Assembly: GCF_001640025.1 (NCBI RefSeq)
Contig: NC_031672.1
Location: 3,906,001-3,970,000, forward strand
Direction: 5' to 3'
From: Sugiyamaella lignohabitans
Taxonomy: Eukaryota > Ascomycota > Dipodascomycetes > Dipodascales > Trichomonascaceae
DNA length: 64,000 nucleotides
The position numbers were made by a program, and so were the translations under genes. Numbering within the stretch: position 1 is the stretch's first letter; each line of letters begins with the position of its first letter. The notes under the pieces were generated by a model. It worked only from the letters and a program-made list of their open reading frames with translations, had not been told where the DNA came from and made no database searches. Below are positions 7,585 through 41,724 of the stretch, one piece after another.

Positions 7585-7722
7585 GCCTCCGGCGGCTGGG
7601 GCTCCGCTCCAGACCCCGTGGCTCCTGCTTCGCAGGAGATTGCTGGGACCGTCGGCATGACACGACTCGAGCACAGCGAGAGGAGCAGCGGGGTCTGGGG
7701 CAGAGCCCCAGCCGCCGGAGGC
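7585..7722 (+). repeat. NPE-1, complete, between convergent LIP2 and RIM101
   Basis: This is a complete nested-palindrome element. The left end begins GCCTCCGGCGGCTGGGGCTC and the right end is its reverse complement. Inside lie the A arm (CTCCTGC-TTC-GCAGGAG) on the left and the B arm (CTCGAGC, then AGCGAGAGGAG) on the right. It occupies 138 of the 241 bp between two stop codons. Strand is set as plus when A is left of B, a convention used for all copies here. Confidence 0.9.
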
Positions 7723-7806
7723 AGGGTCGGGTTCGTCAATAAAATAGCATTTCGTTAATATCTAATAAATACATAGCCCAAATAAAAAATAATAAAATAG
7801 ATTGCT

Positions 7807-9870
7807 TTAGTAAGCAGCAACACTGGGGTACAGCTGGGTGGACGCGGACGACGAGGCGTCCTTTTCGACGTGCTTGGCTTGCTCTTCCTTGAGCAGCTCG
7901 GCAATGACTTTTCGTAGAGCAGCAACGATGTTGAGGTGTTTGGTCATCTGCTCTTTGGCGTCAGGCTCCTCGGAATCGCTGCCACTTTCGCTGTCAGATT
8001 TCTTGTCCTCGATATCGACCTTCTTTAGAGAATCTGTCAGGTCGTCAACAGACGTAGAGGATGAAGGTGGAGCAGCACGCTGACTCACGCCAACTGACTG
8101 TCTCTTTGAGTAGTCGTATTCGTACCGGCTGGCAATTTGTGGATATCCAGCGTTGAAGTCTGTAGAAGAGTTCAACACGGGATACATACTCGTTGACGAA
8201 GATGTTGTCGTTGGTGCTGGACCCAGTTTCTGTGGATAGTTGTGGGTAACAGGGTACGACGACTGGTGATTGTACGAATGTGCTGGTAGTTGTTGGTGTT
8301 GAGGTTGCACCATTGGCTGCTGTGGTTGTTGTTGTGGTGGTTGTGGTTGTGTCTGTAAAGGCAGTCTTTGGTTGTAGCTGTACTGGTCTTCGCTAGAGCT
8401 GGCTGAAGAAACAGACGAGCCCGAGTAGTTGCTGTAGATGTTTGAAGACAGTTGTGATAGGAACTGGTCGGCATCCAGTAGCTCTTGAGTTGATCGGAAC
8501 GATGGCAGAGCTCGGCTGGAGTTGTTCATATTGGCAGCAGGAGCACTGACAGGATTCGATTGCATGGCAGTTTGCGAACTCACTGGCTTACTGACCGGAT
8601 CAGAGTAGTAAGTATATCCCCATGTATTTGGCGAGATGGTCAGAATAGACTCCATTGATGACAGTCGGTTAGACATCTCATTTGAATAGATTGGAGCAAT
8701 TCGTGATCTCTTAATATCGTCAAATAGATCAGCAGTGGCATCAAAAGCACGCTTTCTGTTAGGTGAAGGCTCTTCATATCCGCTGGTATATCGACTGGGT
8801 TGCTGCTGGTGCTGTTGTGGAGGCGATTGGCGAGTCATTTGTGGAACAGCAGGACTGTATCCTTGGGACGACATCATTGGCTGTTGCGAGTACAATGGTG
8901 GATATGGATATTCAGCAGGTCCACTGTTCATACTCACTAAAGCAGGAATAGGTTGATGAGGTTGTAAAGGATAAGAACCTGGAGCAGAGCCTGGTTGTCC
9001 ATAGAGATACTCTCTTTTAAGTGAAGGTACTCTAGATACTAAAGTATCGTCAGCATGGGTCTTGACATGCTTTTTCAGATCCTGGGGTCGCTTGAATGTC
9101 TTTTTGCAGAATTCACACTTGTATGGTTTAAGAGGCACATGCACTCGAATGTGTGAAGTGATATGATCTCTCTTAACTGTGATGACACGGCAGCTGTCCC
9201 ATCTACAAGCGAGGGAAAGATTGTTGGTACATCTTCTGCCTACATGGGCCTCACACAAGTGGTTATACAGGTCTTCAGGAGTAGGAAAACTCTCTTGACA
9301 AGTCAGCCATTTGCATCTCAACACAGGTTCGGCAGAGTAGCTAGCATCGTACATGCTTGAATTAGGTGAGTTGTTAGGTAGTGACTTTGGAGACATTGAC
9401 GATTCTCCCTTTGAACTACCCAAACTATTAGGAGTTGCTCCGTCATATTCACCTGGAGGGGTAATAGAGTCCAGAGCACCGAGTGCTGGAGGTGGTTGGT
9501 TGTCGCCAACCACATCCTGAGCAGAAATAGGTGGAGATGGCAATAATTCGTAATTAGCAGCAGCTGCTGCGGCAGCGGCGGCTGCAGCATGAATAGATTC
9601 TGAAGCCAGCTTCATTTGTTGTTGGTCACCAGTGTGAATATTGGTATTTGGAGTTGCTACCAATGAATCTATAGAAGAAACCGAGGTAGCCGAGGCTCCT
9701 GAAACTGATGACTTGGGGGTTGTTGGCGAGCCTTCAGACTGAGCTGGTGATGTTACTGGCACTGTCAAGGTCGAGTTGGTTTGGAACTCATGTGTCTCGC
9801 CTAAAACACCACTATTTTGTGTGGTATAGGTGTTGGTGTATAGTGTTTGATATGGAGCTGAATTGTTCAT
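7807..9870 (-). CDS. RIM101: RIM101/PacC pH-response zinc-finger regulator
   Basis: Rim101/PacC drives alkaline-pH gene expression after proteolytic activation by the Rim/Pal pathway. Three C2H2 fingers lie at about residues 184-270. The third, with [20 protein letters not shown] and the following [11 protein letters not shown], is nearly the family consensus. The N-terminus has a polyalanine run (about 94-104) and Ser/Pro/Thr-rich sequence. The middle is Gln-rich, and the C-terminus has an acidic [11 protein letters not shown] followed by an amphipathic helix, as in the negative regulatory tail. The length, 687 residues, is usual for the family. Upstream sequence is long and shared with a small orphan frame. 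Confidence 0.93.
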
Positions 9871-10230
9871 TGTCGATGTATATTACAAGTCGGAGTAGAC
9901 AGGTCGAAATGGACTAGTTTGGTTTGACTAGTTTAAACAAAGTCTGAACGCTGGTATAATCGAGCTATGATGAGCTGATTAAATACAGAGAATATCGGGT
10001 CGTGAAGCAGAGATGCCGCACTAGTTTTGGAGCAGAAAGTATGAGGCCGCTGATGGCAGTCTTCTTAAAAATTTCCTAATCCCTTAGCAGGTACGTTGCT
10101 GGTACGGTGCTGGTGTGTTTATATTAGAAGACTGACCGGCTCACCGGGTACCGCTTTCTGTTATTTAGAATGTACTTTTAGACAAAAAAAAACCTAAAAG
10201 CCAGAACCACAATCGACAAGATATATCGCT
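9871..10230. other. Spacer upstream of RIM101
   Basis: This is a 360-bp promoter region with no recognised element. A short A-run lies just before the small frame at 10231. Confidence 0.5.
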
Positions 10231-10440
10231 ATGGCGAAAACCGAACCACTAATAACAAGATCGAGAGGGGCTCCCTATTCTACTAGCGAGTTGAGATGTT
10301 TGTTGATAGAAAAGCCAGCAAAGGAAACTTGTTTAAACTATCGGGTAGCCGAAAGTACCGAGTGGGACGATTTTATAAACAAAAAATATCCAACCGAAAT
10401 AACAGCGCAAAAACTGAAGCGAAAATACAACAAAAAGTAG
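10231..10440 (+). CDS. Small orphan frame, possibly SANT/Myb-like
   Basis: An ATG-started frame of 69 residues contains an initial basic patch, then STSELRCLLIEKPAKETC, then a tail KLKRKYNKK. The spacing of hydrophobic residues, one Trp and the basic tail recalls a SANT/Myb helix-turn-helix, but only one aromatic of the usual triad is present. It could be a decayed or short DNA-binding gene, or a chance frame. No function is claimed. Confidence 0.3.
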   Translation: MAKTEPLITRSRGAPYSTSELRCLLIEKPAKETCLNYRVAESTEWDDFINKKYPTEITAQKLKRKYNKK

Positions 10441-11333
10441 GCCGCGTGGTTAAGTTACCGTTAGTTTAGACGCCATCCCGCCCCATGGCACCCCGGTCCT
10501 TATATAATTACGGCATAAAAAAATGCCAAGAGATTTTGTTAGACTTGGTGTCTGGCTAATAACAATAGCGAGGTATGACACCTAACCCAGAAAAGTTTAG
10601 GCTGTAAACGATCCAATGCTGCGCCCACAGCAGCCTGGGCAAGGGCCATGTCTGTAAAAAGCAAGGATTCAGGTTTGTCGGCAGTCAATCATATCATTCG
10701 ATGCTGTCGAGCCCTGCCGGATATGCTTACTGCAACCGGTTTTAATGGGGGGCCGACTGACTATCCTGTACTACAGTGCTGCTGGCGCTGCTGGCACTGC
10801 TGGCCGGCGTGCAGCTGTCGTTCAACGCTGCACCGAAAACGTTCATCCGGCCCAGAAATAGCATCACTCACTAATGTGCTTAAAACTGGCCTTATCCTAT
10901 CTGTAACTGCCTGTAACTGTCTGTAATCATGGGCGAAACCGTTAGCAGAATAATCATCACCACATTCTTCCCACCCAGTCATCAGGCGGTTTTCAAAAAC
11001 ATCTCAGGTGATGTCAGCCAACATACTCCCGCGCGGTATAAACCTATTTTCATCTCTTTACGCCCTTGGCATGCAACCTGGATCGATACCACGACGCTAG
11101 CTTCAGCCAACCGATTCCATCCAAACACTAACCAGCCAGCCAATCTCGTTCCAAGTCTTCGTTGTCTGAATTTTATCAACTCTCACTTCCAGGTTCCTCA
11201 TTCCTCAAACGGCATGGCACCCACAATGTCTCAGATAAATGAGCTCGGCCCAGACCTGCCTCATACCGGGCATCGTGCGACTGCCCAGCATCTGCTGTCC
11301 AAGCTTATCGGGAGTGCTGATGGGGGAGGTCAT

Positions 11334-11396
11334 GCCTCCGGCGGCTGGGGCTCCGCCCCAGACCCCGCGGCTCCTCTCGCTGCGCTCGAGTCGGGC
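11334..11396 (-). repeat. NPE-2, left half (B arm)
   Basis: The left terminus and B arm of a minus-oriented copy end abruptly after TCGGGC. The matching right half in the same orientation begins 357 bp later at 11754, so the two are probably one element split in its central spacer. Confidence 0.8.
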
Positions 11397-11753
11397 TTGG
11401 GGGTGCCCCTTTTTGAGTGGGAGTAGCCGGTTTTAGTGAGTTTTGGGGGTTGCTGGCCCTGCTGGTGTGACCCGTGTCATGGTGCTGATGCCAGACATGG
11501 GACTGTTGATTTTGAATACCCATGCATTAATGTATATGCACCTGAAAAGTGACGTGATAATATTCTCGTCGGTCAGTCTATCAGCAGCCTGCTACACTTT
11601 AATTCTATCACCGAGACCCGGGCTGGCAGGTGCCCACCGCCCAGTCTGTGGATCTCACCCGTATCCAGACCGTTTCTACCACTTCACACAGCCCTGTCTC
11701 CGACACCGGCCACCTCCTCCTTCTCTTCGTCCGCTCCTCAACCACACCCCTCC

Positions 11754-11822
11754 ACGATCCTAGCAAACTCCTGCGAAGCAGGAGCCACGGGGTCTGGGGC
11801 AGAGCCCCCAGCCGCCAGAGGC
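11754..11822 (-). repeat. NPE-2, right half (A arm)
   Basis: It starts with ACGATCC, a variant of the central ACGGTCC of complete copies, then the A arm and a right terminus with small changes (GCCGCCAGAGGC). It is complementary in content to the half at 11334. Confidence 0.8.
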
Positions 11823-11974
11823 ACACGACCCCGCCGATGCGTTAACCGATGGGTATGCACCAGCACGGGCTGATAATGCACTCAAGGGCCCTGTGGGGAC
11901 CCCCATTTTTGCGTTTCTGTTCTCGTCGCTGGTGGGTCTTGGCACCGGGCATTCCCCCCGTGGGAGTGTGTGCT

Positions 11975-12123
11975 GCCTCCGGCGGCTGGGGCTCTGCCCC
12001 AGACCCCGTAGCTCGCTTCGCTCGTTCGTCAGGGGACGTTCATGAACCTCCGTCCACCCGCGAGAAAATCTCCTGCGAAGCAGGAGCTACGGGGTCTGGG
12101 GCAGCGCCCCAGCCGCCGGAGGC
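11975..12123 (-). repeat. NPE-3, complete with altered B arm
   Basis: Both termini are intact and the A arm is at the right. The left arm is changed to a GCTCGCTTCGCTCG form, and the centre has a different spacer that includes GTTCATGAAC. Confidence 0.85.
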
Positions 12124-12180
12124 AGCCAGCACCCACTCGGAAAACAGTACACTAACCTTCCTCAATCCCTGTTAGAATCC

Positions 12181-12224
12181 GAAGGGGCACCAGGGTCTGG
12201 AGAGCGCCCAAGACCGCCGGAGGC
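12181..12224. repeat. NPE-4, decayed right end
   Basis: The remnant is recognised by CAGGGTCTGGAGAGCGCCCA followed by CCGCCGGAGGC. Several substitutions break the hairpin. Confidence 0.55.
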
Positions 12225-12380
12225 AGTAGCACCGAGTAAAAGTTTTTTTTTTTTTAATTTTTTATTAATAAAATACCTAGACTTAAATTTTTTAAAAGAC
12301 CACTTTCTAAACAGTCAGCCAGGACCGGCTGCTTATCCAACGGTTGTTTTTCAATTATCTAATCATCAGTCTGAGATAAT

Positions 12381-14461: not shown

Positions 14462-14487
14462 CGATAGATGCAAACTCCCAAACAGTA

Positions 14488-15332: not shown

Positions 15333-15464
15333 GCCTCCGGCGGCTGGGGCTACGCCCCAGACCCCCTGGCTCCTCTCGCTTCGCTCGACTCGGGCGTACA
15401 CGGTCCCAGCAGTCTCCCGATACAGGATCTACCGGTCTGGGGCAGAGTCCCAGCCGACGGAGGA
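15333..15464 (-). repeat. NPE-5, complete with damaged right end
   Basis: The left terminus is perfect with loop TAC, then the B arm. The right side is eroded (CAGAGTCCCAGCCGACGGAGGA) and the A arm is largely replaced. Confidence 0.8.
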
Positions 15465-16394: not shown

Positions 16395-16529
16395 GCCTCC
16401 GGCGGCTGGGGCTCCGCCCCAGACCCCGTAGCTCCTGCTTCGCAGGAGACTGCTGGGACCGTCGACGCCCGACTCGAGCGCAGCGAGAGGAGCCGCGGGG
16501 TCTGGGGCGGAGCCCCAGCCGCCGGAGGC
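16395..16529 (+). repeat. NPE-6, complete
   Basis: Both ends and both arms are intact. The left loop TCC and right loop GGA are exact complements. It lies in the TEF1-MRH spacer. Confidence 0.92.
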
Positions 16530-17287: not shown

Positions 17288-18277
17288 ATGGGTATAATAA
17301 CCGACCACGAGCCACAGCCCGACGGTCTGGCCACCAGACCGGTCTCACCATCTGCCAGCCCAGCGGCTGCTACCGAAGGCACCGAACTGCCCAAAAACGA
17401 AGACGAAACGCCGTTCTGCTCCACAACATCCAAATGGACCGGCAACTTCGTCGACCTGACACACCTGGCCCGAAAACACTCGCTGAAGTAAGTGGTTGCG
17501 GCCTTGCTGCCTCCGGCGGCTGGGGCTCCGCCCCAGACCCCGCTGCTCCTCTCGCTGCGCTCGAGTCGGTTCCGTCGACGGGTCCAGCCATCTCCTGCGA
17601 AGCAGGAGCCATGGGGTCTGGGGCAGAGCCCCAGCCGCCGGAGGCACACCCTCCCTTGAAAGTGAGAACTAACAGAGCCCCCCAGTGAACCCCCCCTGGC
17701 CGACTGGAATGTGAGAGGGCTGGACTTTCCTCACAATTTCACGGTCAATATTTGTAACCCACTGCTGACGACTGTGGCTGTAGCGGACGCGCCAGACCGG
17801 TCGTTGGTTAGTGCTCTTTATATGGATAACGAGGGAAAGGCCCACTCGCTGGGAGAGTCGGCCAAACCGTTTTTCCGGGGTCGGTCGCTACTGCTCGAGT
17901 ATAAGAATGGCTCGCCATGTATGGACGACGGACTGCCCACACCGTTTCGTATGTCGTCGACGTTTCTGTTTAAATGCGACCGAGACCTTCCTACCACAAA
18001 AGAAGCGGCTCTGTCGTTTGTGTCACAATCCAACAACTGCTCGTTCTTTTTTGAAGTGCGCACTCCATATGCGTGTCCCAGTCTCAACTCGCACGAGAGT
18101 ATGAGCCCCGTATCCATTTTCTTCATCATCACTATAGTGGCCCTTCTGGTCTATTCCACAGGCACCTTCCTCTACCGACCACCAGCGTTCCTCATGCGGT
18201 TCCGCACCCAACGAAAACGCGCCGACCACGGCTCACGAGCCCATCTGTCCAAGTCGTACGAAGAGGACTACAGCTAA
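17288..18277 (+). CDS. MRH-domain membrane protein (Mrl1/M6PR-like), two exons
   Basis: Exon 1 is 17288-17487 and exon 2 is 17686-18277. The 198-nt intron (GTAAGT, AACTAAC, CAG) contains a whole NPE. The spliced protein has 263 residues with a mannose-6-phosphate-receptor homology domain from about residue 45: FCSTTSKWTGNFVDLTHL, GLDFPHNFTVNICNPLL, YKNGSPC, and FLFKCDRD, with paired Cys. A membrane segment spans about 208-230 (IFFIITIVALLVYSTGTF), and a basic cytoplasmic tail ends SYEEDYS. Such proteins act as sorting receptors in the Golgi-endosome system. Oddly, the first in-frame ATG gives a hydrophilic start with no signal peptide, although the domain should be lumenal. An upstream exon may be missing. 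A 13-codon upstream frame (17218-17259) precedes the ATG. Confidence 0.75.
17509..17645 (-). repeat. NPE-7, complete, inside the MRH-gene intron
   Basis: It sits 21 nt after the 5' splice site and 40 nt before the 3' splice site. In gene sense it reads B arm then A arm. Without it the intron would be 61 nt. Confidence 0.93.
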
Positions 18278-18318: not shown

Positions 18319-18452
18319 GCCTCCGGCGGCTGGGGCTCCGCCCCAGACCCCGCTGCTCCTCTCGCTTCGCTCGAGTCGGGCGTCGACGGTCCCAGCATCT
18401 CCTGCGAAGCAGGAGCCACGGGGTCTGGGGCGGAGCCCCAGCCGCCGGAGGC
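18319..18452 (-). repeat. NPE-8, complete, between convergent genes
   Basis: It fills 134 of the 235 bp between the MRH and ASG1 stop codons. Flanks GTGCT and AGCAC extend the terminal inverted repeat. Loops TCC and GGA are complementary. Confidence 0.93.
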
Positions 18453-18512: not shown

Positions 18513-21499
18513 TTAAAAGTTCATGAAGCTGTTCATGCCCGAGAGCTCGGCGTTTTGCGAGATGAAGTCGTCCCAGCTTCGCGAGGAGAAGATGGACGAG
18601 ATGCTGCCTCGTCGCACGTCTTCGGGTAGCTCATCGTTGACGGCAGAAGTGGAGTTGGTGGTGCTGGCGAACGGGTCGGACTGGGTAGTGTGGTGTGGTG
18701 CAGTGGTGGTGTTGGCAGACTGCATCATGTACGGGGGCAGAAACCGGCCGAACAGCTGGGTGTCGACCTGGTCCATCAGTCCAGGAACGTAGTTTTGTGG
18801 AATGAAATCGGTCGACGAGATGGACAGCGCACCGTCGGCAGTGATGGGTTCAATTCCAGTCGCCGTGGTCGTGGTAGCGGCAGGATTGATATCACCAGTT
18901 AGAAGTGAAGCATTGTGTTCGCTAGCAGCGTCATTGTCAGAAGTAGCAGCAGTGGTAACTGTTGTAGGATTCGATGAAGTAGTTGTGTTGCTGTTGGCAT
19001 GGTCGTTGGATGCTGATTGCGTGGCAGGAATTTGGAAACCACCGACAGCAGGGAATCCTTGGGCAAGAAACTCGAGTCGTTCTAAAAGCTTGCCGCCATC
19101 AGGGAACACTACACTAGCACGTCGTTGCAGTCCGTCGGCAGAATCGTCTCCTGTTCCATAGTTGGCGACCTCAGGCATCGACACTGAGCTTACAATAGCA
19201 CTGTTGATGTTTTCTGATCCGGCAGCAGCCCCTTCTTTAGTAGCAAGTGCGTTTCGAAGCTTGGCTGTTCGCTTGTTCAGCTGGTCAAACATTCCGTTGA
19301 GAAGATTGTATGTCCTGGATGCAGACGTACTGTTGTCTTTCAACTTGTCTAGAGCACTCTTTCCAAGCTCGGCATCCAGCTGGACTTCAAGAGCATCGGG
19401 TTCGTTGAAATTCTCGTGCGAATAAAACACTAAGCAGGCCACCGAGAAAAACACCGTGTAGACAGAAAACCAGTATGCTCCATTAAGCATCTCGTGAGAC
19501 ACCATATCATGAGCAATGTGAACCACTTGTCTGGAAACGACAATACACTTTCGGGCGTAATACTTTGCTCTCTCATCCCCATAGTTAGCTGCTGGTTGGT
19601 GACCATGACCATAGCTGGGACTGAGATAATGGATAAACGGTCGATAGAGTAATATCAGCACATAACAATAAGCCAGACTGAGCAGTCTGTTTGCTTTTAG
19701 ATATTCTGCTCTTACATCAGCACCGTGTTTTAATTGATCAGGAAGCGACTGTTGCCATTCGTCAATCTCCTTTTCCAGCTCCACGATCTTAGAGTAAGTG
19801 ATACTGGATGCTTTGCCAGGATGTTCACCGTTGGTGCTGGAATTAGATGTAGTTCCAGTGGGGTTGTTGACGGTAGAAGACACTCCACCTGGATTCACTG
19901 GATAGATTTTCTTCAAAATATGGCCTAAAATCGTCATGAGTCTTGTATGGGCATTGGCAATACCAGCAGACGACAGTTTGTTTTCCTTTTGTGGGTAGTA
20001 AGCGTCTTCAGTGATATTTTCATCATCGATTTCTTCGGGCAGATCCTGGTCGAAATCTTCTTCACTGATGCTAAGAGGCAGACCAAGAACAGAGTTTACA
20101 TACACATCCATTTTCCGAATAGTCCAGAACAGCCGTTTCCTGGTTTCCAAGTCGATTGGATTGAAGTTATAATTGACTTTACGATGTAGACCGGCTCGTA
20201 GTGCCGCTCGAAGAGCTATTCCAATATATGAATAGCACGTCGATAGACGAGCTGAGCACTGTAGAAACAGGATCATCATGACTATCGACTGAATAGCATG
20301 CACATCCCGGGTATCTGTTATATCGATGAGTCGTCTGGCAGCCACAAAGTATTTATATCCTTCACTGGCGTCTTTAAATCCCAATTGTTCGCTCTTATCC
20401 ATGGAAAAGAGCACACCCACCGCCATAATCGAGTACACCAGCGGTAATATCCGATACTGCTTATCAGTATAATCTTCAGGCTCCGATTCATACAGTAAAT
20501 CCAGGTCTCGAATGAACGATGGTCGGTGATAAAACCGGAACAACACACATGCATTCTCCCATACTGCCTCGATCAACTGCACCGCGACAAACTTCGGTGG
20601 CAGAATGATCCTGAACTCAGCTGAGTTGTCGCTGCTCGGTGACTGAAGCACCGAACCGGCATTCGACTCACTTCGCAGAGCAGCGAATCCTGCTGCTGGT
20701 GACCGTTTACTTTTAGAAGCACTAGTAGCGGCACTGGCTCCCGGCGTGCCTGACTTGACACTGGCCAACGCGGCCTGTAAATCAAAAGTCGGCGAATAAA
20801 TATCAACCCCCGGTAGCAACTGCTCAAGAACCGACTCGGCACACTTCAACTTCGTCTCAGTCTTCAACCCGTCCGGTGCTTTCTTTCTGTTCGACGGCTG
20901 GTCGTAAGTACACTCGTACGAATACACCGAACAGTGGGTACATGGCTGCTTGCCATCGCACTTGACTTTCTTCTTCCTGCCTGATCCTTGTTAGTGCACT
21001 GACTGGGGGGTTTCAGACAGCCTCCGGCGGCTGGGGCTGCGCCCCAGACCCCGTTGCTCCTGCTTCGCAGGAGATTGCAGGGACCGTCGACGCAACCGAC
21101 TCGAGCGAAGCGAGAGGAGCAGCGGGGTCTGGGGCGGAGCCCCAGCCGCCGGAGGCACGTCCGGTACTTACACTCGTCACAGGCACGAATGACCCGCTTT
21201 CGTTTTCGTCCGTCGCTCGAGAACTCGCTCTGTACCTCGTAGTCGAGGACAGGGTAGCTACCGACCACGGGAGCATTGGTTGCTGGGTGTTGTCCGTGGA
21301 AGTGGCCCGGCAGGGGCTGCATGCCAGGTACCATGAGCGGGATTCCGCCCGGTAGTGACTGGAGTTGGAGGGGATTTGGATGTGGCATCGAGAAGCTGCC
21401 GTTGCCCGCTAGATGATGTGGTTGTTGAGGAGGTGGTGGATGGCCGCCGGCACCGTTGCCGTTGCTATTGGCATCCTCGTAGTAGAAGTTCGGATCCAT
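18513..21499 (-). CDS. ASG1: Asg1-like Zn2Cys6 regulator, two exons
   Basis: Exon 1 is 21172-21499 and exon 2 is 18513-20980. The 191-nt intron 20981-21171 (GTAAGT, CACTAAC, CAG) splits the codon of the second zinc-cluster Cys and contains an NPE. Splicing restores a full cluster, cysteines 107, 110, 117, 123, 126 and 133, with the segment CRKKKVKCDGKQPCTHC and then ECTYDQPSNRKK, very close to yeast Asg1. The helical fungal-factor domain follows (FVAVQLIEAVWENACVLFRF; LSTCYSYIGIALRAALRAGL). The C-terminus is Ser/Thr/Asn-rich. The product has 931 residues, close to Asg1 (about 960). Asg1 relatives act in stress tolerance and lipid/carbon metabolism. The start ATG at 21499 is the first in frame. 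The 5' spacer is 3.1 kb. Confidence 0.8.
21020..21156 (+). repeat. NPE-9, complete, inside the ASG1 intron
   Basis: It sits 15 nt after the 5' splice site and 39 nt before the 3' splice site of a minus-strand gene. In gene sense it reads B arm then A arm, the same as NPE-7. Without it the intron would be 54 nt. Confidence 0.93.
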
Positions 21500-24400
21500 A
21501 TCTGACAAATGAGTTCTCTCTTCAGTCAGCTCAATCTTATTTTTGGTAGTAATGACAGGAGTAATAACTGTGTTGAATGATTCAAGCGAGTGGGGTCTTG
21601 AGATCGGTCTGGACTTGCGAGTTTATTCGTGCTGTGCCCTGGACTCTACTGGTTCTTGGCTCTTGGCACTTCGTTTATTCTGTATTCAGTCCTTATCACG
21701 TCACAAAACCGATACTTCTCAAATGTGATATCCTTGACAAAACCAGTTCGTGCGTTTTATGCAGCCAAACCAGAATTGACGTGAACTGAACTGCTTCGTC
21801 AGCTGCTATGCTTGTCGTGAATGTGCACCAAAATGTGTACTCCAATCCAATGAGAATATATAATATCAGTTCCAGATGCCAGTTCCAATACTCCAATATT
21901 CTGACTTCCGAAATTCCAGAGTTGATTAAACAAATCTGAAAATTCGAAGAAAATGTTCTTCAGACAGACGAAGATCCTATCCTATATATATGTATATATA
22001 TTGTGACCCCCAATGTACAATTACCAAGATCAATTTTATCTTGATGCTGTGCGTCGCATATGAAAATGACAAGCCTTGAAACCCAAAACCCGTGCAGTTG
22101 GTCATAATTCAGTTTTGTTTAGGTTAGTCCGTCCGCATTTACAAGGACAGATGCACTGCAGGTTTCTGCTGACAGGGTCGCACCCTAACCTGGAGCCAGC
22201 AGGAGAGGGCACGGACCACAAGATCTCCGCGATCTGAGCGAAGGTAACTCATCTCCGAGATCAGTCAATCATCATTCATGATCCGAATCCGATTCAACCG
22301 TTTTTGCCGTTGTTCTTATCGCTTTGCTGTTATCGTTGTTGTCGTTATCTCAGAAGTAAACAGATGAACTGAATAATATCAAAGTTATCATTGGCATTTT
22401 TGCTCCACCTAAGTTTAGTTACATTTAGAGAAATTGTTGCTGGAGCTCGATTCATGTTCGCTCGACATGCTTACCTCCAACGGGCTGCATGCACCTTCTT
22501 CCAGATTGGAAGTTTTCTAGAGGCAGATTCTGACCCTGGACTCCGAGTTGCCCCGGATAGGCTCCTACCTCGGAACGAGGTCGGATACCATGACACACTC
22601 GCACCTAATGAACTTGAGCGATTAGTCATATTGTCGGTATATCGCTGAGACTGGATGTGAATCTGGTCCCTAAACCGTCATTTAGGTTTGCGGATCGCCA
22701 TTTCTTCAATTCTTAGCTCACAGCTCACAGCTCACACTTCACAGATTACAAAACACACTTCCACAGCTTTTGAACCCATTCGCTAATTGACCAGAAAACT
22801 TCTTTTTCTGAAAAAAAATTCCGTGCATCGTTTAGTAGCAAATGTTACGAAAATGGAAAGCAAATAAGTCAAGCAGAGTGGGGAAGCGAAAATGGGGGTA
22901 CAACGGGGGTATAATTAGAAGTGCACACTACGTCAACGGATGCATTTACACACGGCACGATGCACAGGAACTTCTTTCTATATGCAGTTAGAAGCAGTTT
23001 GTTTCATTGCCAAGAACTGTTTGGCATAATTTTAATATTCCTCAAACCGTTCCTGGCGAACCCGAGTTTCCGACTCCAACATCCAAGCATGACCACAACC
23101 TATGCGGAAGATCCGCACTGATCCGACCGTGCGGCGCTTATCTCTGACGCAGGGCCCCCTTCCAAAACCACGCCCCGGCTCCGGCACCACTCGGCACGAC
23201 CCACTATTCCCCTGATCACCCCTCCTCCAAAACGTTCGAAACTGGGCGTTACCGACACTCACGCTCCGTATGCTCACGAACACGGGGAGGCGGGGGTCAG
23301 CCTCCGGCGGCTGGGGCTCTGCCCCAGACCCCGTAGCTCCTGCTTCGCAGGAGACTGCTGGGACCGTATACGTCCGACTCGAGCAGCGAGAGGAGCAGCG
23401 GGGTCTAGGCAGAGCCCCAGCCGCGGAAGCAGGGTCCGGGTTAGGGCTGCAGGATCCGGATGCAGGTTCATGGGATCGCTGCGTTTCTGCAACAAAGTTT
23501 CAGTGAGATAAGGGCGATGGTGGATTACAATTAGGTTTATCGTTCGGCAAAATACAGTTTGCTCGGATGGCTTTGTGTGATAATGAGGACGGTGGGTCAT
23601 ATGGAGCGTCTGCTAGGGGGCTGTTAGACAGTGTTTGTGGAGTGGTGGTTGGTGGGAGTGTCGGATGAGGGTCGAGTGAGTCTGCAATGGCTGGCCATGC
23701 ATCGAAGACGCCATCGCCGTGCGATCGAGATGTCACTGTCCATACAGGCATGTACTTCCGCGGTCGGCAGGCCAGGATGATCTTGAAAACATCTTTCGTT
23801 CTGGCCTGTATTTGATTAAAAAACAGCTGGACATAGCTAATTGTACCGAAATAGCTTCGTTAGTTGCGAACTTCCTCGGTTCGGGTGTGGAGATGGTGCA
23901 ATTGCGGGAAATGAACTGGTTCAGAGAAGTGAGAACGCCTCACCCGCCGCGCAAGATATTGCATGGTTACCCTAGTAACGGCGAGACAAGAAGAAACAGT
24001 TTCCTTGGGAAAAAAAAAACATTGCTTAGTTGTGTACAGTCGAGATTGAAATTTTGTATTTGTTTTGAAAGCGTATCGGTAGAAACACAGTCAGCAACGG
24101 CATCCGGAAAGGACGTGCAACGCTTGATATCTCAGTAGACCTTGATATTAACTGATTTTATCCACTGAGTGGGTTTTTGGCTACCGCTAGTTTGCGTCAC
24201 AAGAAAGGAAGGATATAAATATTGGTTTCCTTTGTAAGTGCGTCACCACGTTGTTGTCAACAAACGACCAGTCAAACTGACCAACAAAAGTACACAACAC
24301 TGCTATAACTGTTTGGAAAATCCCACAAAACAACTTCTACTCTGGGTCACTCTTTCAAAGTGCATAGAAATTGCTTGAATTTTGGTGTGGGTCCATCTTG

Positions 24401-27487: not shown

Positions 27488-27623
27488 GCCTCCGGCGGCT
27501 GGGGCTTCGCCCCAGACCCCACTGCTCCTCTCGCTTCGCTCGAGTCGTCACCTGGACGGTTCCAGCCATTTCATGCGAAGCAGGAGCGATGGGGTCTGGG
27601 GCAACGCCCCAGTAGCCGGAGGC
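27488..27623 (-). repeat. NPE-11, complete, between convergent genes
   Basis: It lies between the forkhead and ubiquitin-fold gene ends and finishes 48 bp from the latter stop codon. The left loop is TTC and the right loop AAC. One base change is seen in the right terminus (CCCCAGTAGCCGGAGGC). Confidence 0.9.
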
Positions 27624-28432: not shown

Positions 28433-28569
28433 GCCTCCGGCGGCTGGGGCGCTGCCCCAGACCCCGTGGCTCCTGCTTCGCAGGAGATGGCTGGGACCGT
28501 CGACGAAAACGACTCGAGCGAAGCGAGAGGAGAAACGGGGTCTGGGGCAGCGCCCCAGCCGCCGGAGGC
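28433..28569 (+). repeat. NPE-12, complete, inside a 5' UTR intron
   Basis: It lies 30 nt after the 5' splice site and 33 nt before the 3' splice site of the leader intron 28400-28599. In gene sense it reads B then A. Loops GCT and AGC are complementary. Without it the intron would be 63 nt. Confidence 0.9.
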
Positions 28570-29568: not shown

Positions 29569-29636
29569 ACGGTCCTATCAAACTCCTGCGAAGCAGGAGC
29601 CACGGGGTCTGGGGCAGAGCCCCAGCCGCCGGAGGC
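29569..29636 (-). repeat. NPE-13, right half only
   Basis: It begins at the central ACGGTCC, then has the A arm and a perfect right terminus. No left half is found nearby. The break is at the same central point as in NPE-2. Confidence 0.85.
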
Positions 29637-31492: not shown

Positions 31493-31630
31493 GCCTCCGG
31501 CGGCTGGGGCTTCGCCCCAGACCCCACTGCTCCTCTCGCTTCGCTCGAGTCGTTTGACGGGGTGTCCCCAGGGCGCTCCGCGAAGCGGAGCACAACCAGG
31601 GTCTGGGGCGGAGCCCCAGCCGCCGGAGGC
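31493..31630 (-). repeat. NPE-14, complete, with compensated A-arm stem
   Basis: It lies between the RPL16 and MDR stop codons. The A arm here is GCTCCGC-TTC-GCGGAGC, changed on both strands of the stem relative to the consensus, so pairing is kept. The left loop is TTC and the right loop GGA. Confidence 0.92.
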
Positions 31631-33206: not shown

Positions 33207-33403
33207 GCCGCCGGCGGCTGGGGCGTTGCCCCAGACCCCATTGCTCCTGCTTCGCAGGAGATTACCGGGGGACTCAAGTTTATATAATATACTATGAGTG
33301 GTGCACGCACCTAACAAAATAAATGCCGGAAAGGTCGACGAAACGACTCGAGCGGAGCGAGAGGAGCCGTGGGGTCTGGGGCGAAGCCCCAGCCGCCGGA
33401 GGC
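33207..33403 (+). repeat. NPE-15, complete with a 60-bp central insert
   Basis: The termini and both arms are intact, but the centre holds about 60 bp of AT-rich sequence (TATATAATATAC), making it 197 bp long. The left loop is GTT and the right loop GAA. Confidence 0.9.
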
Positions 33404-33962: not shown

Positions 33963-34021
33963 CCCGAGAGCTAAGCGAGAGAACCCGTGGGGTCTGGCGC
34001 GAAGCCTCAGCCGCCGGAGGC
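33963..34021 (+). repeat. NPE-16, right half (B arm)
   Basis: A right terminus with an altered B arm (GAGAGCTAAGCGAGAG) and GGGGTCTGGCGCGAAGCCTC. No left half precedes it. It is followed 31 bp later by a left half. Confidence 0.75.
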
Positions 34022-34052
34022 AACACCCCGGGTAGACAGTGTGCGACAGAGG

Positions 34053-34106
34053 GCCTCCGGCGGCTGGGGCGCTGCCCCAGACCCCGTTGTGCTCGCTTCG
34101 CGAGCG
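34053..34106. repeat. NPE-17, left half with a novel arm
   Basis: A perfect left terminus (loop GCT) is followed by GCTCGC-TTC-GCGAGC, a different but fully paired arm hairpin. With NPE-16 it gives a right-half/left-half order, as if two tandem copies each lost their outer part. Confidence 0.75.
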
Positions 34107-35399: not shown

Positions 35400-35700
35400 T
35401 TGCTGCTGCTGCTGCTTGTCTGATTCTGCGGGCTGATTATGACTGCTGCTGCCCGAGCTATTGCCTATCGCTGCTGCTCATGCTCCTGCTGCCGCTGCCG
35501 CTACTGAATGAGTACTGAGGTACTGATTGAGCTGAGGATTGTGCTGCTGCTTAAAGCTATTGCGTGGAGCTACTGATTAACATGCTGATTGAGATATGAA
35601 ATATTACCACTGATTCAGCTACTAATTCAGCTCCTGCTTAACTATTAATCCAACTACTGACTCAAGTACTGATTCTACTGAACTACTGCATATCTCTCTG
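35400..35700 (+). repeat. Imperfect CTG and ACTGATT-type repeats
   Basis: CTGCTG blocks grade into a loosely periodic series of TACTGATT, GCTACTAATTCAG and similar units. There is no long open frame with matching periodicity. Confidence 0.5.
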
Positions 35701-35777
35701 CCGACAGTACTTGCTACCTACCACTTGACAATGATGATAGCGGTAATATTCACAGTTTGAATACCGTAACCAGTATC

Positions 35778-35808
35778 CACACACAAACACAAACACACAC
35801 ACACACCC
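35778..35808 (+). repeat. CA dinucleotide microsatellite
   Basis: A CACA-rich run with occasional AAA interruptions. Confidence 0.8.
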
Positions 35809-37086
35809 CATCGGTTGCTACTGGTAAGTACCACTTACTCTCCACTACCCTGTATACCTGTAAATAGCTTATTCCCCAGACCGGTCGAATTGAAAAAAAA
35901 AAAGACCTATCTCGGCACAGTAATACAACCTAAAACCGCTAGTCACGGCGTTGGCGGTCCAGGTGCCCAATTTTGTTTTTCAAGCTTGTAACCGTTTTTT
36001 TGCTGTTTCATCTCGTTTATGGCATACTCGTTTTTTACAAAAAAGCCTCCCGTTTTCGTACCTTGCTTTTCTTTTGTTGCTGCTGTGTTCTATCTTCTCT
36101 CTCCACACACAATAACGCAAGTCCCAACTGGTGAGTTCCGCCTGTAATATATTTGACGCTGCTGCGGTTTCGCGATATTTTCGTCTCCCTCTCCGTCCCG
36201 ACTGCCGCTGTCACGTATTGTAAACCCGCCGTTAACCAAACCACCGCACCGCTACTGCATTAGCATCAGCAGCTTACAGCACCCTGCCGAACCACATGGT
36301 CCACCCGTCATGAGCCTGCAGCTGGAATTTCATCCGTCCTCTCCACGTTTATATGTAATCCCGTGAGAGATGCACATTGCCTAAAATGGCCAGATTAGTG
36401 CTTTACATACAGTACTAATATATATATGTCCAAATATATCTAGATAGTTCTAATATTGATTGAAGTGAAAAATTCATTATTCGTCATCTCCTTGAATCGA
36501 TATTGCTATTGTACAACGTTGATAATATCCTTGAATACTGCTAATTCCGTGATTGATTTTATTCCTTGAATTCGTTTCTTTATCATCTATCTCTTGTTAT
36601 TGATAATATCCCCGCCGCTAGCTTGTTGATTATCTAAATTACTGTGGCTGTTGGTGTGAAATATCACTCAAGCACGTTTTGAAAATTTCCAACATTTATT
36701 TCGACGCGTTTGTTTAGCACTATCCAGCCTGATATTGACTTTGCTGATATTTATTGGTGTCTACGACGATATCAAGTAATATATTTCATAACCTTGGACG
36801 TGTAACCATTTAGTTTGTCGCCGCGCTTTTCCTCCGGTACACCTCCCCAGTTTGTCACCCATTTTCTTCCGGATAGGGTCCTTGGTTTACGTTTCAAATT
36901 AATAGTTGGGTTTCTTTCAGTCTGCTTATAATTTATTTGCAAACAGTTGATTACATTGCACATTATATCAGGTTCACTTGAAACTACTGCGCCTTAGTCT
37001 ACCCCACAGTTCAGTTTCACAGTCTGTCTCCATATTTCGTTTTCGACTTTCCCGTTGGTTATTATACTCTCACTACACTACCTACC

Positions 37087-39075
37087 ATGTCTGCTTTGTC
37101 AGTTGCTTTAAACGGATTGAGATCCCATGATCACACCACGAACCCTCATTCTCATTTATTATCACATTCGCGATCGCCCCCACCTGCCTTGGATGGCTAC
37201 TCCAACCTTCGCGGTAGTCCTCCCAACGGCATTAAACATAGCCTTGCCAATGGTTCAACAGACCATGCTCCTGGTAACTTTGAAAGATTAGCTGTATTCG
37301 CTAATGGGTCTCGAAGTTCCAGCATTGATGGAGCCATTAGCTCCAGTACGTCGGCCATCGACAATAGTGCTGCTACACCCGCTTCTGCTGTGGGTGCTAG
37401 TACTGGATCAGGCAGATCTGGTTCGCCCACTCCTGCTCAGAGATTTGTAAATGTTCCTCGCACTACTGTTGACACTTTAGGTTCATCTCCATCTGCTTTT
37501 TCACCTCTGTCGTCAAATTCATATCGATTGACAAATAACTTACGTCGCTCGTCTCTTTCTCCCGCTGGAAGTGTTAGCAGTAGCACTGGCCAAAGTATTC
37601 CTCATGGTTCAGTGTCTCCTATTGCTACAGCTGAAGGAGCTGATCTTATTGCTCCACCCTCGCCAACTTCTGCCAATGCTGCCAATGTTTTACTTCAAAC
37701 AGCCCAGTTGAGTCAAGCTTCGTCGCAGAAGCAATCACAGCCCATTCAGACTTCACAAGTAAGCAACACGTTACTAGCTCAGCCCTCGTCTCTATCAAGA
37801 CAATTGGCTCAGTCTGCTACACGTCATTACGACATTCCTAAGACCTCTAATTCATCAAATGCTTCGTCGGTGAATAATAATGGTTCTAGCACCCCTAGAA
37901 ATAGAAGACTGTCAAATACTGTGCACACTCCAACTGGATCTTATGGTGCCAAGGCTTCACCTGGTCTTCACCCAGTTGGTTCTGCTTCGTCTTCTCTTCT
38001 TAAGTCACACTTGATTCAGTCAAGCACTACTCCTGTTGGCAGTCCTGGAGCCGCCTCTAATGGCCCACTAAACACCAATTCACCAGTTGCGATTGCCGCA
38101 GCCGCTGCAGTTACTCCAGACAAACTGTCTCGTCTTCTACTTACGCAGGGCCCACTTGCTATTCGTCATATCACCTCACATTTGGCTCTCACTATCAATG
38201 GATTTGCAGACCTATCGCTTTCTAAACAGAGACGGTTAATCATTGCTGTCCTAGACAGTGGTGATCCTGTCAACAGTGTAGTTTTCGAGAAGGTTGGATG
38301 GGGTCGATGGGCTGCTCGTAAGACTGATTCTCCTGCAGCAGCAGCAGCTGCTGCATCTGCTGCTTCGGCTGCCAACAATGGCTCTTCCAAACATCGTCGT
38401 GATAGTATCAGTGCCGAACTTGTATCGTCATCAGTGAACCCACCTATCTCGCCAGTTCTAAACGCTGTTGACTCACATTACCTGTCTTCATCACTCAAGA
38501 ACTCGATCACAACTGCCTACGCTGACGACGTGGATCTAGCTGATGATGATATGATGTTCCATAACTCCGTCATTCGCAAGCCCGTACGACCAAGTCATCT
38601 CTTGCAAGGAGCTCTTCGCAGCCGTCGTCACCGAAGGCCTTCACAAAAGATGCGTGAAAGAATTGCATTTGGTGCTGAGGGCCGTAACATGGACGACAGC
38701 GATAATGACGATGATGACGAGCTCGAACGTGTTGGTGACCGCAACAGCGTCTTCGACGAAAATGTGTTTGAAGACGACGACGACGAGCTGGACGAGCTGG
38801 ATTCTCTCGATGACCAAGAGGCCATGGACGACGCGATCCACCTCAGCATTCGACGACCCAGCCGCAACGGTGGCGACACCGACGACGAGGACTGGCAGGC
38901 CATCGGAGCAGCCAAACTCCGACGAGACACAGCAGCCACGATAGCACAGCTCAGTGCCAGCCACAGTCACTACCACCAACAACAAGCGGCAGACATCAAG
39001 CAGCCCACCCAGGACGACGTGGTCAAGCGCGAACAAGAGGCCATTGACGCCCTCGTCCAGCTCAAATCCATCTGA
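37087..39075 (+). CDS. STB3: Stb3-like RRPE-binding regulator
   Basis: The 662-residue protein carries the Stb3/Sin3-binding family domain at about residues 344-410 (LLLTQGPLAIRHITSHLALT; SLSKQRRLIIAVLDSGDPVN; VVFEKVGWGRWAARK). In S. cerevisiae Stb3 binds the RRPE motif and represses ribosome-biogenesis genes with Sin3/Rpd3 until glucose or TOR signalling releases it. The rest is low-complexity: Ser/Asn/Thr-rich to residue 340, with polyalanine near 420, then basic patches and long Asp/Glu runs (about 535-595). RRPE motifs in the TEF1 and STM1 promoters of this window are candidate targets. The 5' spacer is 4.4 kb. It converges on STM1. Confidence 0.85.
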   Translation: MSALSVALNGLRSHDHTTNPHSHLLSHSRSPPPALDGYSNLRGSPPNGIKHSLANGSTDHAPGNFERLAVFANGSRSSSIDGAISSSTSAIDNSAATPASAVGASTGSGRSGSPTPAQRFVNVPRTTVDTLGSSPSAFSPLSSNSYRLTNNLRRSSLSPAGSVSSSTGQSIPHGSVSPIATAEGADLIAPPSPTSANAANVLLQTAQLSQASSQKQSQPIQTSQVSNTLLAQPSSLSRQLAQSATRHYDIPKTSNSSNASSVNNNGSSTPRNRRLSNTVHTPTGSYGAKASPGLHPVGSASSSLLKSHLIQSSTTPVGSPGAASNGPLNTNSPVAIAAAAAVTPDKLSRLLLTQGPLAIRHITSHLALTINGFADLSLSKQRRLIIAVLDSGDPVNSVVFEKVGWGRWAARKTDSPAAAAAAASAASAANNGSSKHRRDSISAELVSSSVNPPISPVLNAVDSHYLSSSLKNSITTAYADDVDLADDDMMFHNSVIRKPVRPSHLLQGALRSRRHRRPSQKMRERIAFGAEGRNMDDSDNDDDDELERVGDRNSVFDENVFEDDDDELDELDSLDDQEAMDDAIHLSIRRPSRNGGDTDDEDWQAIGAAKLRRDTAATIAQLSASHSHYHQQQAADIKQPTQDDVVKREQEAIDALVQLKSI

Positions 39076-39175
39076 CCGTGCACGCCACATCCATCGTCAC
39101 AACCGCCTCACGACCCTACTATTATAGATCTCAGTTTACGAATTACGAAGCTCTTAATTATCCAGCCCAGTTTCT

Positions 39176-39313
39176 GCCTCCGGCGGCTGGGGCTCCGCCC
39201 CAGACCCCGTTGCTCCTGCTCCGCAGGAGACTGCTGGGACCGTTTACGGAAACGACTCGAGCGAAGCGAGAGGAGCTACGGGGTCTGGAGCAGAGCCCCC
39301 AGCCGCCAGAAGC
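39176..39313 (+). repeat. NPE-18, complete, between convergent genes
   Basis: It lies between the STB3 and STM1 stop codons. The A-arm loop is TCC instead of TTC, and the right terminus has small changes (GCCCCCAGCCGCCAGAAGC). Confidence 0.9.
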
Positions 39314-39568
39314 ACTCCAACTACGGATAGTATGCGGATAGTTTTTTACATTGCATCAGAATATTACATATGTTCCTGAAATCGTCATCGGCATCATTTA
39401 ACAGAGGGATTTTGGAGTGAAATTTTAAATATTTTAGAGAAAAAAAGGGCCTTAGTCGTAAAATCATCTTCATCGTCGATACTAAAAAGAATCTTTTTCA
39501 AACACGCACCATGTCTGTCAGTGTCCTAGTGCAGGTATACTTTTTGCGAGTTTCTCTAAAGCAGACGC

Positions 39569-41075
39569 TTAGTTGCCCAAGGTGGGGAAGTCAGCTTGAG
39601 AGGTGATGTTGACCTTGGCTTGGGCACCAGCACGGCCACGTCCTTGGTTGTTGTTGTTGGCGTTGTTACGACGGGGTCCGTTACGGGCACCACCACGAGC
39701 AGGGCGCTCGCTACGGTCGCCACGGTTGTTAGCAGGACGAGCAGGACCGGAGAAAGAGACGTCGGCCTCAATGATGGTCTTCTCCTTTCTGGTCTTGGTA
39801 CGGACAGCCTTGGAACGAGCTTCGGGAACGAGCTCCTCGTCAGACTTCTTAACCTCGTTGGCATTGGCCCACTTGGCATCCTCAACACCCTCGTTAGCCT
39901 TACGGGCGGAACGGGAAGCATTGAGCTCAGCGTTCTTAGCGTTGAGCTCAGCATAGTACTCCTCAAGAGTCTTGGTGTTATCAGCCTCCTCCTCAGCAGG
40001 AGCGGCCTCGGCAGATTCAGCCTCAGTGGCATCCTCCTTGGCAATAGACTCGGCAGCAGCCTCGTCATCGAGTTTCTTCTTGTCATCACCCCAGGCCTTG
40101 TTAACCTTCTTGTCAGAGTCGGTCTTGCCAGTTTGAGAGTGACGGTCGAAACGACGGTTGTTGGTCTTAGAACGGGGGGTCTCACCCTCGGCACCACCTC
40201 TGGAACGGTTGTTGGCACGGCCAACGTTCTTGTCCTTCAAGGCAGCCTCATTTCCACTAAGGGGCTTCTTGTTACCGGTAGCACGGGCAGGGTTGGCACG
40301 AGCAGGAGCAGCATCAGCCTTCTTGGAGGAAGTGGTGTTCTTGACAACCTCCTTGACGGGGCCAGAAGAAACGGGAACAGAGGGAGAATCCTCGTCGTCG
40401 AGAAGAGCAAAGGGGTTCTACATATAAGTTAGTTTCAACACTCGTTTACTTCAACTCGACGAATGCTGTCAAGGTTATACCATCATACATCCGAGCAAAG
40501 GGATCTTGTTCAATTGAGATACTGCGACAAAAAAGAAACCAAAAAGATAAAATCATAGACAAAATGCAAATTGTATAACCAAACGAGACCATAGGTAGAT
40601 TTAAGCACCCCAACATCAACAGCGTAATCACATAATAGTTCAGCTGCCTACTAAAGTTGGCAATTTTTAAACGTGCGATCTCAACTGTTTCATGTTGGAT
40701 GTGACAGGTCTAAATGACCAAATACCTAACTCGTCTATCTCATTCTTGTTTTCAAGGTTCGACTAAAATGTACTCCACACTACTACATGATGCAATTACA
40801 GCAATTACGCTGTACGATCTTGCACTTTGCCAGTCCTAACCATTGAACCTTGACTTGCACACCCGCATCATGAACATATAACTCCATTCAAATTTGCTCG
40901 AATTTTCAAGTTCTTAACAGGCCAGAAATCTCAATAATCAAAATAGCGGGTCGAACACCAGTACAAAGGAATTTTACGGTCTCCAAACGTCTATAACAGT
41001 CACAATTCACAAGTCCAGAACCCAGATGATTTTGCGCCCACCACATAATATATTTACCTTTGAAGCAACAGACAT
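39569..41075 (-). CDS. STM1: Ribosome-associated protein Stm1, two exons
   Basis: Stm1 clamps idle 80S ribosomes and also binds G4 nucleic acid. Exon 1 (41058-41075) encodes MSVASK. A 640-nt intron (40418-41057; GTAAAT, ACTAAC, TAG) follows. Exon 2 (39569-40417) opens with NPFALLDDE. The spliced product has 288 residues, close to 273 in S. cerevisiae. Family blocks are the N-terminal NPF motif, GNEAALKDKNVGRANNRSR, RRFDRHSQTGKTDSDKKVN and KAWGDDKKKL. The C-terminal half has Arg/Gly/Asn stretches and ends QADFPTLGN. The codon bias is strong. An RRPE lies 150 bp upstream. Confidence 0.93.
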
Positions 41076-41224
41076 GGCCAATTTAGTCCTGAACTACACT
41101 ACCTAGCGGAATTATCCCTGGATATGGCGGTGTTGTTGTATAATGTGTTTGACTAGATTTACTATAAACAGTAAGAGAAGAAGAGAAGGCAGGAGAAGGA
41201 AAAAAAATGCAACAATTGAGTGGG

Positions 41225-41235
41225 TGAAAAATTTT
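41225..41235 (+). promoter_or_regulatory. RRPE in the STM1 promoter
   Basis: The exact 11-mer TGAAAAATTTT lies 150 bp before the STM1 ATG. It is the known Stb3-binding motif, and an STB3 gene is the next gene but one. Confidence 0.5.
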
Positions 41236-41579
41236 GACCAAAAAGAGATAATATGCAAGCTGGACCTCACCTTACCCTCTAGCTTTTAGAATGATGACCG
41301 CTTGACAACCTATTCTTATACAGGGGAATCTGCGCTTGCCCACAATTATAGCAACCATCCCTGCCAGCTCCCCAGCTCCCCAAATTATCCATTCCAAGCA
41401 CAAATGAGTTCCTTCGCCTCCTACAATTGGAGGATTGGGCGCCTTCTTGTGAAATTTCGGTTATGTATATTGCTTCTAGTCAAGGTTGCCAGTCCGTGAC
41501 CCACACCTAGACCACCAGCCCATTGACCACTCATTCCTATACCGAGTGCGGAGGCCCAGACCCTGAGGGAACGGGTTCT

Positions 41580-41724
41580 GCCACCGGCGGCTGGGGCTCT
41601 GCCCCAGACCCCTTAGCTCCTGCTTCGCAGGAGATGGCTGGGACTACCGAAGGAAACGACAAGAGAGGAGCGAGAAGAGCGAGAGGAGCAGCTGGGTCTG
41701 GAGCTCAGCGCAGCCACTGGAGGC
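41580..41724 (+). repeat. NPE-19, complete but diverged
   Basis: The left terminus has GCCACCGGCGGCTGGGGCTC and the A arm is intact. The B arm and right terminus have several changes (CAGCGCAGCCACTGGAGGC). Confidence 0.8.

Follow-up and report, generated by a model that had tools for sequence, protein, structure and literature searches.

The DNA analysed here (the window, 64,000 bases) spans bases 3,906,001-3,970,000 of a 5.93-Mb contig of the yeast Sugiyamaella lignohabitans, in a genome assembly of 15,932,016 bases on 4 contigs. The published description of strain CBS10342 gives 16.0 Mb, 4 chromosomes and 50% coding sequence (PMC5499181), which this assembly fits. An open reading frame (ORF) at 61836 encodes an Alg9-type mannosyltransferase, with ~50% identity over nearly its whole length to named relatives in Trichomonascus and Blastobotrys. 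The feature under study is a set of short palindromic elements, which belong to a hairpin-built, very abundant and dispersed nuclear repeat family; this family is genuine. Its basic module, 55-60 bp long, consists of the terminal TGCCTCCGGCGG, an end hairpin CTGGGGC-NNN-GCCCCAG and then one arm hairpin (type A, type B or one of the rarer types), and occurs either as inverted doublets (median 139 bp) or as solo halves.

A first-pass annotation of this DNA reported 14 complete copies in both orientations, and both statements are borne out. When both ends are required at ≤4 mismatches, our program finds 13 two-ended copies, one of them 197 bp long and the other 12 between 132 and 149 bp. A 14th at 41580..41724 (+) keeps one end at 1 mismatch, while its second half is decayed (alignment z 13.4), and its right end is recognisable by reading, not by program. 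The leftmost element, 7585..7722 (+, 138 bp; A arm left, B arm right), lies ~20 bp past an ORF stop and between convergent ORFs, while the one at 16395..16529 (+, 135 bp; DNA fold z -11.0 and -10.7) has the canonical order A-centre-B. Three more were strand-folded: 18319..18452 (-, 134 bp), which has copy-specific inverted-repeat flanks (11/12 bases); 21020..21156 (+, 137 bp), inside the unverified ORF 20864-21499; and 28433..28569 (+, 137 bp), whose end loops are complementary (GCT/AGC). Complete elements also lie at 11975..12123 (-, 149 bp), 17509..17645 (-, 137 bp) and 33207..33403 (+, 197 bp, with a long centre), and at 31493..31630 (+, 138 bp) the B arm is paired with a different second arm (GCTCCGC-GAA-GCGGAGC). 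Less perfect ends are found at 15333..15464 (+, 132 bp; B arm left, right end with 3 mismatches), 27488..27623 (-, 136 bp; one end with 2 mismatches), 39176..39313 (+, 138 bp; one end with 3 mismatches) and the two-ended element 23300..23431 (+), whose right end is degenerate (4 mismatches). Five ends have no partner (11334, 11822, 29636, 34021 and 34053). They belong to a half with end hairpin and B-type arm running into unique DNA (11334..11400, +, inner limit approximate), a half with a 2-mismatch end and A arm (11768..11822, -), an exact end with A arm followed by unique DNA (29583..29636, -), the end of a degenerate half (34004..34021, -) and the end of a half with a third arm type (34053..34070, +), whose outer end faces the preceding half 31 bp away. 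The ends at 11334 and 11822 may be what was earlier called a split copy.

The repeat is far from a local peculiarity. With ≤3 mismatches, the end 18-mer GCCTCCGGCGGCTGGGGC matches the window 31 times where 0.03 are expected and none of 100 shuffles reaches 31, and arm A (CTCCTGC-NNN-GCAGGAG) matches 17 times against 2.6 expected, which confirms the presence of that arm. The whole-genome search for copies that the first-pass annotation proposed, run with the exact end pattern, returns 5,732 ends (2,860 forward, 2,872 reverse) and none with the reversed pattern as control; the family is present on all four contigs and, at ~58 bp per end, would by this arithmetic take up about 2% of the genome. 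Forward and reverse ends are balanced because doublets give one of each; the B arm has a direction, yet its exact stems are balanced too (1,662 forward, 1,637 reverse). A further T adjoins 5,342 of the 5,732 exact ends (93.2%), so the end of the element is sharp; the terminal inverted repeats are thus as first described but for this one added base, and begin TGCCTCC. Rfam holds no match to the element at the gathering threshold. Density varies from place to place: in 20 10-kb tiles of contig 1 (18 at 300-kb steps plus both contig ends), we count 0 to 5 forward ends per tile at ≤2 mismatches, with six tiles free of any end and six others holding 4-5 forward ends.

To describe the anatomy we assembled 70 two-ended copies and 53 unpaired ends, with a partner sought up to 330 bp away. 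The material came from the window and the tiles, from four other loci, and from 40 stretches containing 43 of 92 further listed end sites. These 43 sites are the first listed on contig 1 and have exact ends only, so this part of the sample is biased to one region and to good copies; four loci (L002, L003, L007, L008) that overlap L001 and L006 were dropped from the anatomy and flank-composition counts, with the loss of sites C1:32469 and C1:106671. Doublets measure 132-149 bp in 51 of the 70 and 153-292 bp in the rest. The arms are A+B in 50; the others are B-B, B-C, A-C or A-A, or have one arm unclear. Across 48 aligned canonical copies (mean pairwise identity 0.83) the centre, unlike the ends and arms, is not conserved, and the two ends within a copy are alike beyond chance, with equal loops in 34 of 60 where 27.0 are expected (p 0.005). 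We also observe elements fused with one end hairpin in common, without its head (L044:121-375), a B half copied in tandem together with its G-rich neighbour (L038:121-380) and a near-identical pair 19 bp apart (L068:520-810).

Halves are the point on which the earlier picture changes most. The two-ended copy had been taken as the main unit and halves as few, and neither survives outside the window: the window and tiles together yield 37 pairs and 33 unpaired ends (a few of the latter perhaps cut by tile edges), and 15 of the 43 listed ends have no partner within their stretch. Halves might be doublets in which one side has decayed, and we mostly reject this: among 46 halves tested for a trace of a second half, 44 stay under z 3 and 41 under z 2, leaving two at z≥3 and three more that reach z 2, in one of which an adjoining complete copy accounts for the trace. 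In the 44 usable halves the 60 bases past the arm are unrelated sequence but G-rich (0.34-0.60 by bin) and mostly C-poor (0.12-0.30).

The hairpin loops show a regularity: read on the strand from centre to end, the hairpins tend to the form C-GNA-G. Genome-wide, 3,203 of 3,299 B arms with one exact stem have a GNA loop. In our sample, 61 of the 63 B arms in the expected half have a GNA loop, and N can be any base (among the 63, A in 34, C in 18, G in 5 and T in 4); all 52 exact arm-A matches have GAA or GGA, one of them in the unexpected half. End loops are GNA in 100 of 129; the exceptions are AGA, AGC and AAC. The terminal GCC-GGA-GGC may count as a further hairpin of this form, and the stems of B arms appear, on a reading of their letters, to hold facing GA/GA steps. 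GNA loops are reported as a class of extraordinarily stable DNA minihairpins (Yoshizawa 1997, cited in PMC6479982). The DNA folds of six strands from four copies reach z -10.7 to -13.5. Hairpins with such loops are also seen elsewhere in this genome. At both ends of contig 1, AT-rich subtelomeric hairpins such as ACAATATTTAGGC-TTC/GAA-GCCTAAATATTGT have a GAA/TTC loop on unrelated stems (L009:100-210, L028:9150-9940), and GAA-loop hairpins outside the elements (arm at least 7) have GC-GAA closing in 9 of 12.

The elements are mostly intergenic. ORFs of at least 150 aa, called mechanically, take 49% of the sampled DNA, and 35 of 37 copies lie outside them; the two inside sit in ORFs that were not checked as genes. 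The first-pass placement between and inside nuclear genes therefore holds for a dispersed nuclear family between genes and is weak for copies inside them. Where ORFs flank a copy on both sides (23 copies), they are convergent in 10, divergent in 7 and tandem in 6, against 13, 54 and 34% of intergenic positions, and the median distance is 155 bp to an ORF 3' end and 843 bp to a 5' end. Over 21 stretches, element density follows the GC content of intergenic DNA from which the elements have been removed (rho 0.905, p 2e-8; their short G-rich flanks are kept) and the GC content of third codon positions (GC3; rho 0.77, p 5e-5). The genome seems to be divided into GC-rich, element-rich and GC-poor, element-poor stretches, and the GC enrichment may be cause or consequence of the elements. 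In 4-kb bins of the window, the ten that span the elements (4001-44000) have a GC content of 0.46-0.52 and the other six 0.41-0.43.

The flanks bear on how copies may have been joined to their surroundings. Three of the 70 pairs lack 40-nt flanks, leaving 67 copies. No target-site duplication is found in these 67 (offsets 0-4 on each side, lengths 2-6 and 8), bar a weak 2-bp direct excess at offset 0/0 (5 against 1.6 expected), nor in 39 copies by a longest-common-word test; the earlier statement that no duplication is visible stands on both samples. At 15-16 bp from the ends there is a 2-bp inverted signal (z 3.0 and 4.2 for the 39 copies, 3.3 and 3.5 for the 67), which we take as chance, because the added copies lie nearer background and many positions were tested. 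Among the 134 flanks of the 67 copies only one pair from different copies is alike, that of the two tandem copies in L068; the copies therefore sit at different places. Outside 110 ends, positions 4-15 are 37-53% G and the G-rich zone ends ~15 bp out: GGGG is present in 44% of the first 15 outer bases and in 9% of the 15 that follow. Further out than 30 bases, that strand has a mild excess of C (skew -0.14 to -0.20).

In a minority of copies the two flanks are also inverted repeats of each other. Ten of the 67 have such copy-specific repeats over 7-21 bases (score at least 7), where re-pairing of flanks leads one to expect 1.05, and since the other 57 show no excess at all (p 0.29), the ten form a separate class and are not the top of a gradient. 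Two exact ends are found in 9 of the 10 and in 36 of the 57, a difference that is not significant (p 0.15). Six of the ten have two 38-nt ends that are not identical, so whole-arm copying is not seen, unless later mutation made the differences. One candidate source is insertion into palindromes that were already there. Against this, palindromes of that sort are seldom met outside the elements, and those found are never G-rich: inverted flanks occur, within the window and tiles, at 5 of 35 copies and at 71 of 247,816 positions outside elements (a slight undercount owing to a prefilter), and none of the 71 has GGGG in the 20 bases left of the axis. Exact palindromes without spacer and with arms of at least 8 number 37 against 3 in one random draw, many of the 37 in one TA run. 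The inverted flanks would fit fold-back synthesis at insertion; break repair in budding yeast is reported to yield fold-back inversions of similar size, with templated inverted duplications of mostly 5-34 bp (PMC11724301).

We then ask which enzyme might act on these ends, and whether the ends exist elsewhere. In six frames, the Y1_Tnp profile (PF01797) has no match in the yeast genome and matches 5 of 14 control genomes; Helitron_like_N also has none, and its controls are likewise silent, so that answer is empty. A search for relatives through spurious ORFs gave 46 candidates, none of which scored, a weak probe confined to one frame and one length range. By blastn with E up to 10 against plasmids and phages, no record covers 80% of the query: the lowest E among the best 30 of 47 plasmid records (33 from Streptomyces) is 7e-4, over 30 bases of end hairpin, and E is at least 1 among the best 15 of 43 phage records. 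The strict pattern GCCTCCGGCGGCTGGGGC-NNN-GCCCCAGACCC occurs in four stretches of an 84,980-species collection, from Solidesulfovibrio aerotolerans (G001), two other Desulfovibrio-type genomes (G002, G004) and an Acetobacteraceae metagenome-assembled genome (MAG; G003). At ≤2 mismatches, the 18-mer is counted 204, 19, 46 and 449 times in G001, G002, G004 and G003 (reversed control 0, 0, 8 and 8), with 343 exact copies in the MAG. Nine distinct MAG sites include 6 two-ended ones with mostly different centres, and of 9 contigs in a viral collection, 7 show two ends that face each other at a distance of 98-128 bp. In the two-ended viral-collection copies (L086-L093) the end loops differ between copies and are complementary in 5 of 8 (read by eye; two are the same element), as if one end were templated on the other.

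The bacterial distribution of the 33-nt end is sporadic. Across 100 genomes of the MAG's family an exact match is found in the MAG itself alone, and in the Desulfovibrio phylum GCCTCCGGCGGCYGGGG occurs in 6 of 198 genomes, with 198 copies in G001, 17 in another and four single matches; the control pattern occurs in two genomes of this phylum, so single matches are at control level. G001, G002 and G004 have the Y1 transposase; in the MAG it was not found. Several of the bacterial look-alikes sit between A-rich and T-rich tracts, as bidirectional terminators would. In Desulfovibrio-type genomes the head GCCTCCGGCGGC is also joined to different hairpins (CCGGGGGG-ATGA-TCCCCCCGG and CAAAGGGC-TTT-GCCCTTTG; L069, L074, L078, L082, L083), combinations that look like a modular intergenic repeat system of its own. 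The shared 33-nt end may reflect either descent or convergence of GC-rich hairpins.

Drawing these results together, we tentatively favour, with somewhat less than even confidence, a mobile-DNA-like family, non-autonomous and acting as folded single-stranded DNA, REPIN-like in layout and joined to its target without duplication. An element strand would fold by its hairpins, and some activity that sees the hairpin ends would make or capture the folded strand; the joint would be made at a G-rich site with no staggered cut. In the less common case the 3' end of the element would pair with the opposite terminal repeat and copy ~7-21 flank bases before the second joint is made; halves would be joins of one module only. 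Counting for this reading are the number and sharpness of the ends, the balanced B arms, the spread over all four contigs, the loop rule, the lack of direct repeats, the discrete class of inverted flanks, and the module fusions and tandem copies. A fuller version would make the family the counterpart of REPINs in a eukaryote: a repeat of the nucleus, multiplying as one folded DNA strand, recognised through successive C(GNA)G mini-hairpins, inserted without target duplication, priming fold-back copying of its flanks and perhaps sharing its end with bacterial repeats by descent; we regard this as improbable. Several points weigh against the favoured reading in either form. Both mobility and mechanism are what we infer. 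Two RNA folds are as extreme as the DNA folds, so energy alone cannot tell DNA from RNA and the case for single-stranded DNA rests on the loop rule, which 29 of 129 end loops break and which descent from a few loop subfamilies could in part mimic. In the 54 copies whose flanks show little or no inverted repeat, G-richness is likewise seen to either side of the element (mean G 0.44 and 0.38); this favours symmetric target choice, as fold-back does not predict it. Finally, the sharp end suggests a cutting enzyme, and none was identified with the two profiles tried, Y1_Tnp giving no match and Helitron_like_N an empty answer.

Symmetric targets would also fit if the elements were ordinary miniature inverted-repeat transposable elements (MITEs) of a DDE transposon, choosing G-rich/C-rich sites and duplicating little or nothing of the target. 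The terminal inverted repeats with their sharp ends, the high copy number, the G-rich zone on both sides and the weak 2-bp excess all agree with this, but no other direct repeat is clearly beyond chance in the 67 copies, one-ended halves are nearly as common as pairs and nested C(GNA)G hairpins are not known as a feature of MITEs; we think it unlikely, while taking it seriously. The correlations with intergenic GC and GC3, and the equal end loops within copies, would follow as well if nothing moved now and old palindromes were maintained in GC-rich regions and multiplied there locally through recombination, template switching and GC-biased conversion. That copies sit at different places, on all four contigs, makes this decidedly doubtful. 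Usefulness to the host, with the elements as 3'-end, terminator or boundary signals expanded under selection, would account for the excess between convergent ORFs and the closeness to 3' ends, and the terminator-fashion tracts around the bacterial look-alikes point the same way; still, avoidance of promoters would equally explain the 3' bias and the tiles are very uneven, and we hold this to be quite unlikely. Nor do we give much credence to the entry into the yeast of a bacterial REPIN-type repeat, spread since by some HUH-type activity. Three Desulfovibrio-type genomes and one Acetobacteraceae MAG have the 33-nt end in common with the family, the 18-mer recurs in all four and 7 of the 9 viral-collection contigs have facing ends, but the occurrence is sporadic (one of 100 genomes in the MAG's family, and 6 of 198 in the Desulfovibrio phylum, four of these having just one match), the bacterial copies read showed neither A nor B arms, Y1 was not found in the yeast or the MAG, and GC-rich hairpins may converge.

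Whichever explanation applies, a family of ~2% of the genome tracks GC-rich regions, and its loop rule points to single-stranded DNA. In this tractable yeast system one could ask by what means hairpins spread when no target is duplicated, whether local GC rises through them, and whether a common mechanism underlies the palindromes of bacteria and eukaryotes. No other short palindromic mobile family like it is known to us from the nucleus of a budding yeast; among the literature matches listed there is no description of this one, nor of REP/REPINs in yeast or eukaryotes. Layouts of this kind do exist in bacteria, and the earlier view that nothing comparable is known is not supported: REP/REPINs have the doublet and singlet layout, and the 33-nt end recurs in a few bacterial genomes.

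How, then, does the family compare with known systems? It is like MITEs in its terminal inverted repeats, shortness, lack of coding capacity and high copy number, and unlike them in its nested GNA hairpins, in halves nearly as common as pairs and in that no target duplication was found. The layout is also reminiscent of rolling-hairpin ends of the parvovirus type, which combine a nested palindrome with a replication protein. The likeness to mitochondrial GC clusters that the first-pass annotation saw is supported, and modules fuse and duplicate here too: clusters such as GC42 of Saccharomyces are GC-rich dispersed palindromes with merging and shuffling modules and common heads with different continuations, and the four commonest in S288c mitochondrial DNA have 5 to 25 identical copies (PMC4478555). 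Our family differs in being nuclear, on a contig with nuclear genes, in having far more copies and terminal inverted repeats with nested hairpins, and in making no AG/ACT duplication. REPIN/REP sequences come closer, being short non-coding inverted hairpin doublets beside singlets, at high copy number, mainly extragenic and with a less conserved spacer (PMC3116915); the 70 two-ended copies, 53 unpaired ends, 5,732 genomic ends and 35 of 37 copies outside ORFs match this layout. The family is REPIN-like in layout and differs in tag and transposase. REP/REPIN ends bear a fixed GTAG or CGTC tag (PMC3733652, PMC8266576), which is absent at the ends of the 48-copy majority consensus; a GTNG before arm A varies between copies. 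REPs and REPINs are moved by RAYT (TnpA-REP), whereas our family is nuclear, has a second hairpin arm in each 55-60 bp unit, and lives in a genome in which no Y1 transposase was found. The bacterial GCCTCCGGCGGC hairpin repeats of Solidesulfovibrio, the MAG and the viral collection, for which we know no name, differ in their length (98-128 bp), in loops of 3-6 nt, in having no A or B arms in the copies read and, in the MAG, in outer flanks that are often A-rich/T-rich. They nevertheless share with the yeast family an identical 33-nt end (18-mer, hairpin, GACCC) and, in the MAG and viral contigs, a layout of two facing ends whose centre mostly varies from one copy to the next among those read.

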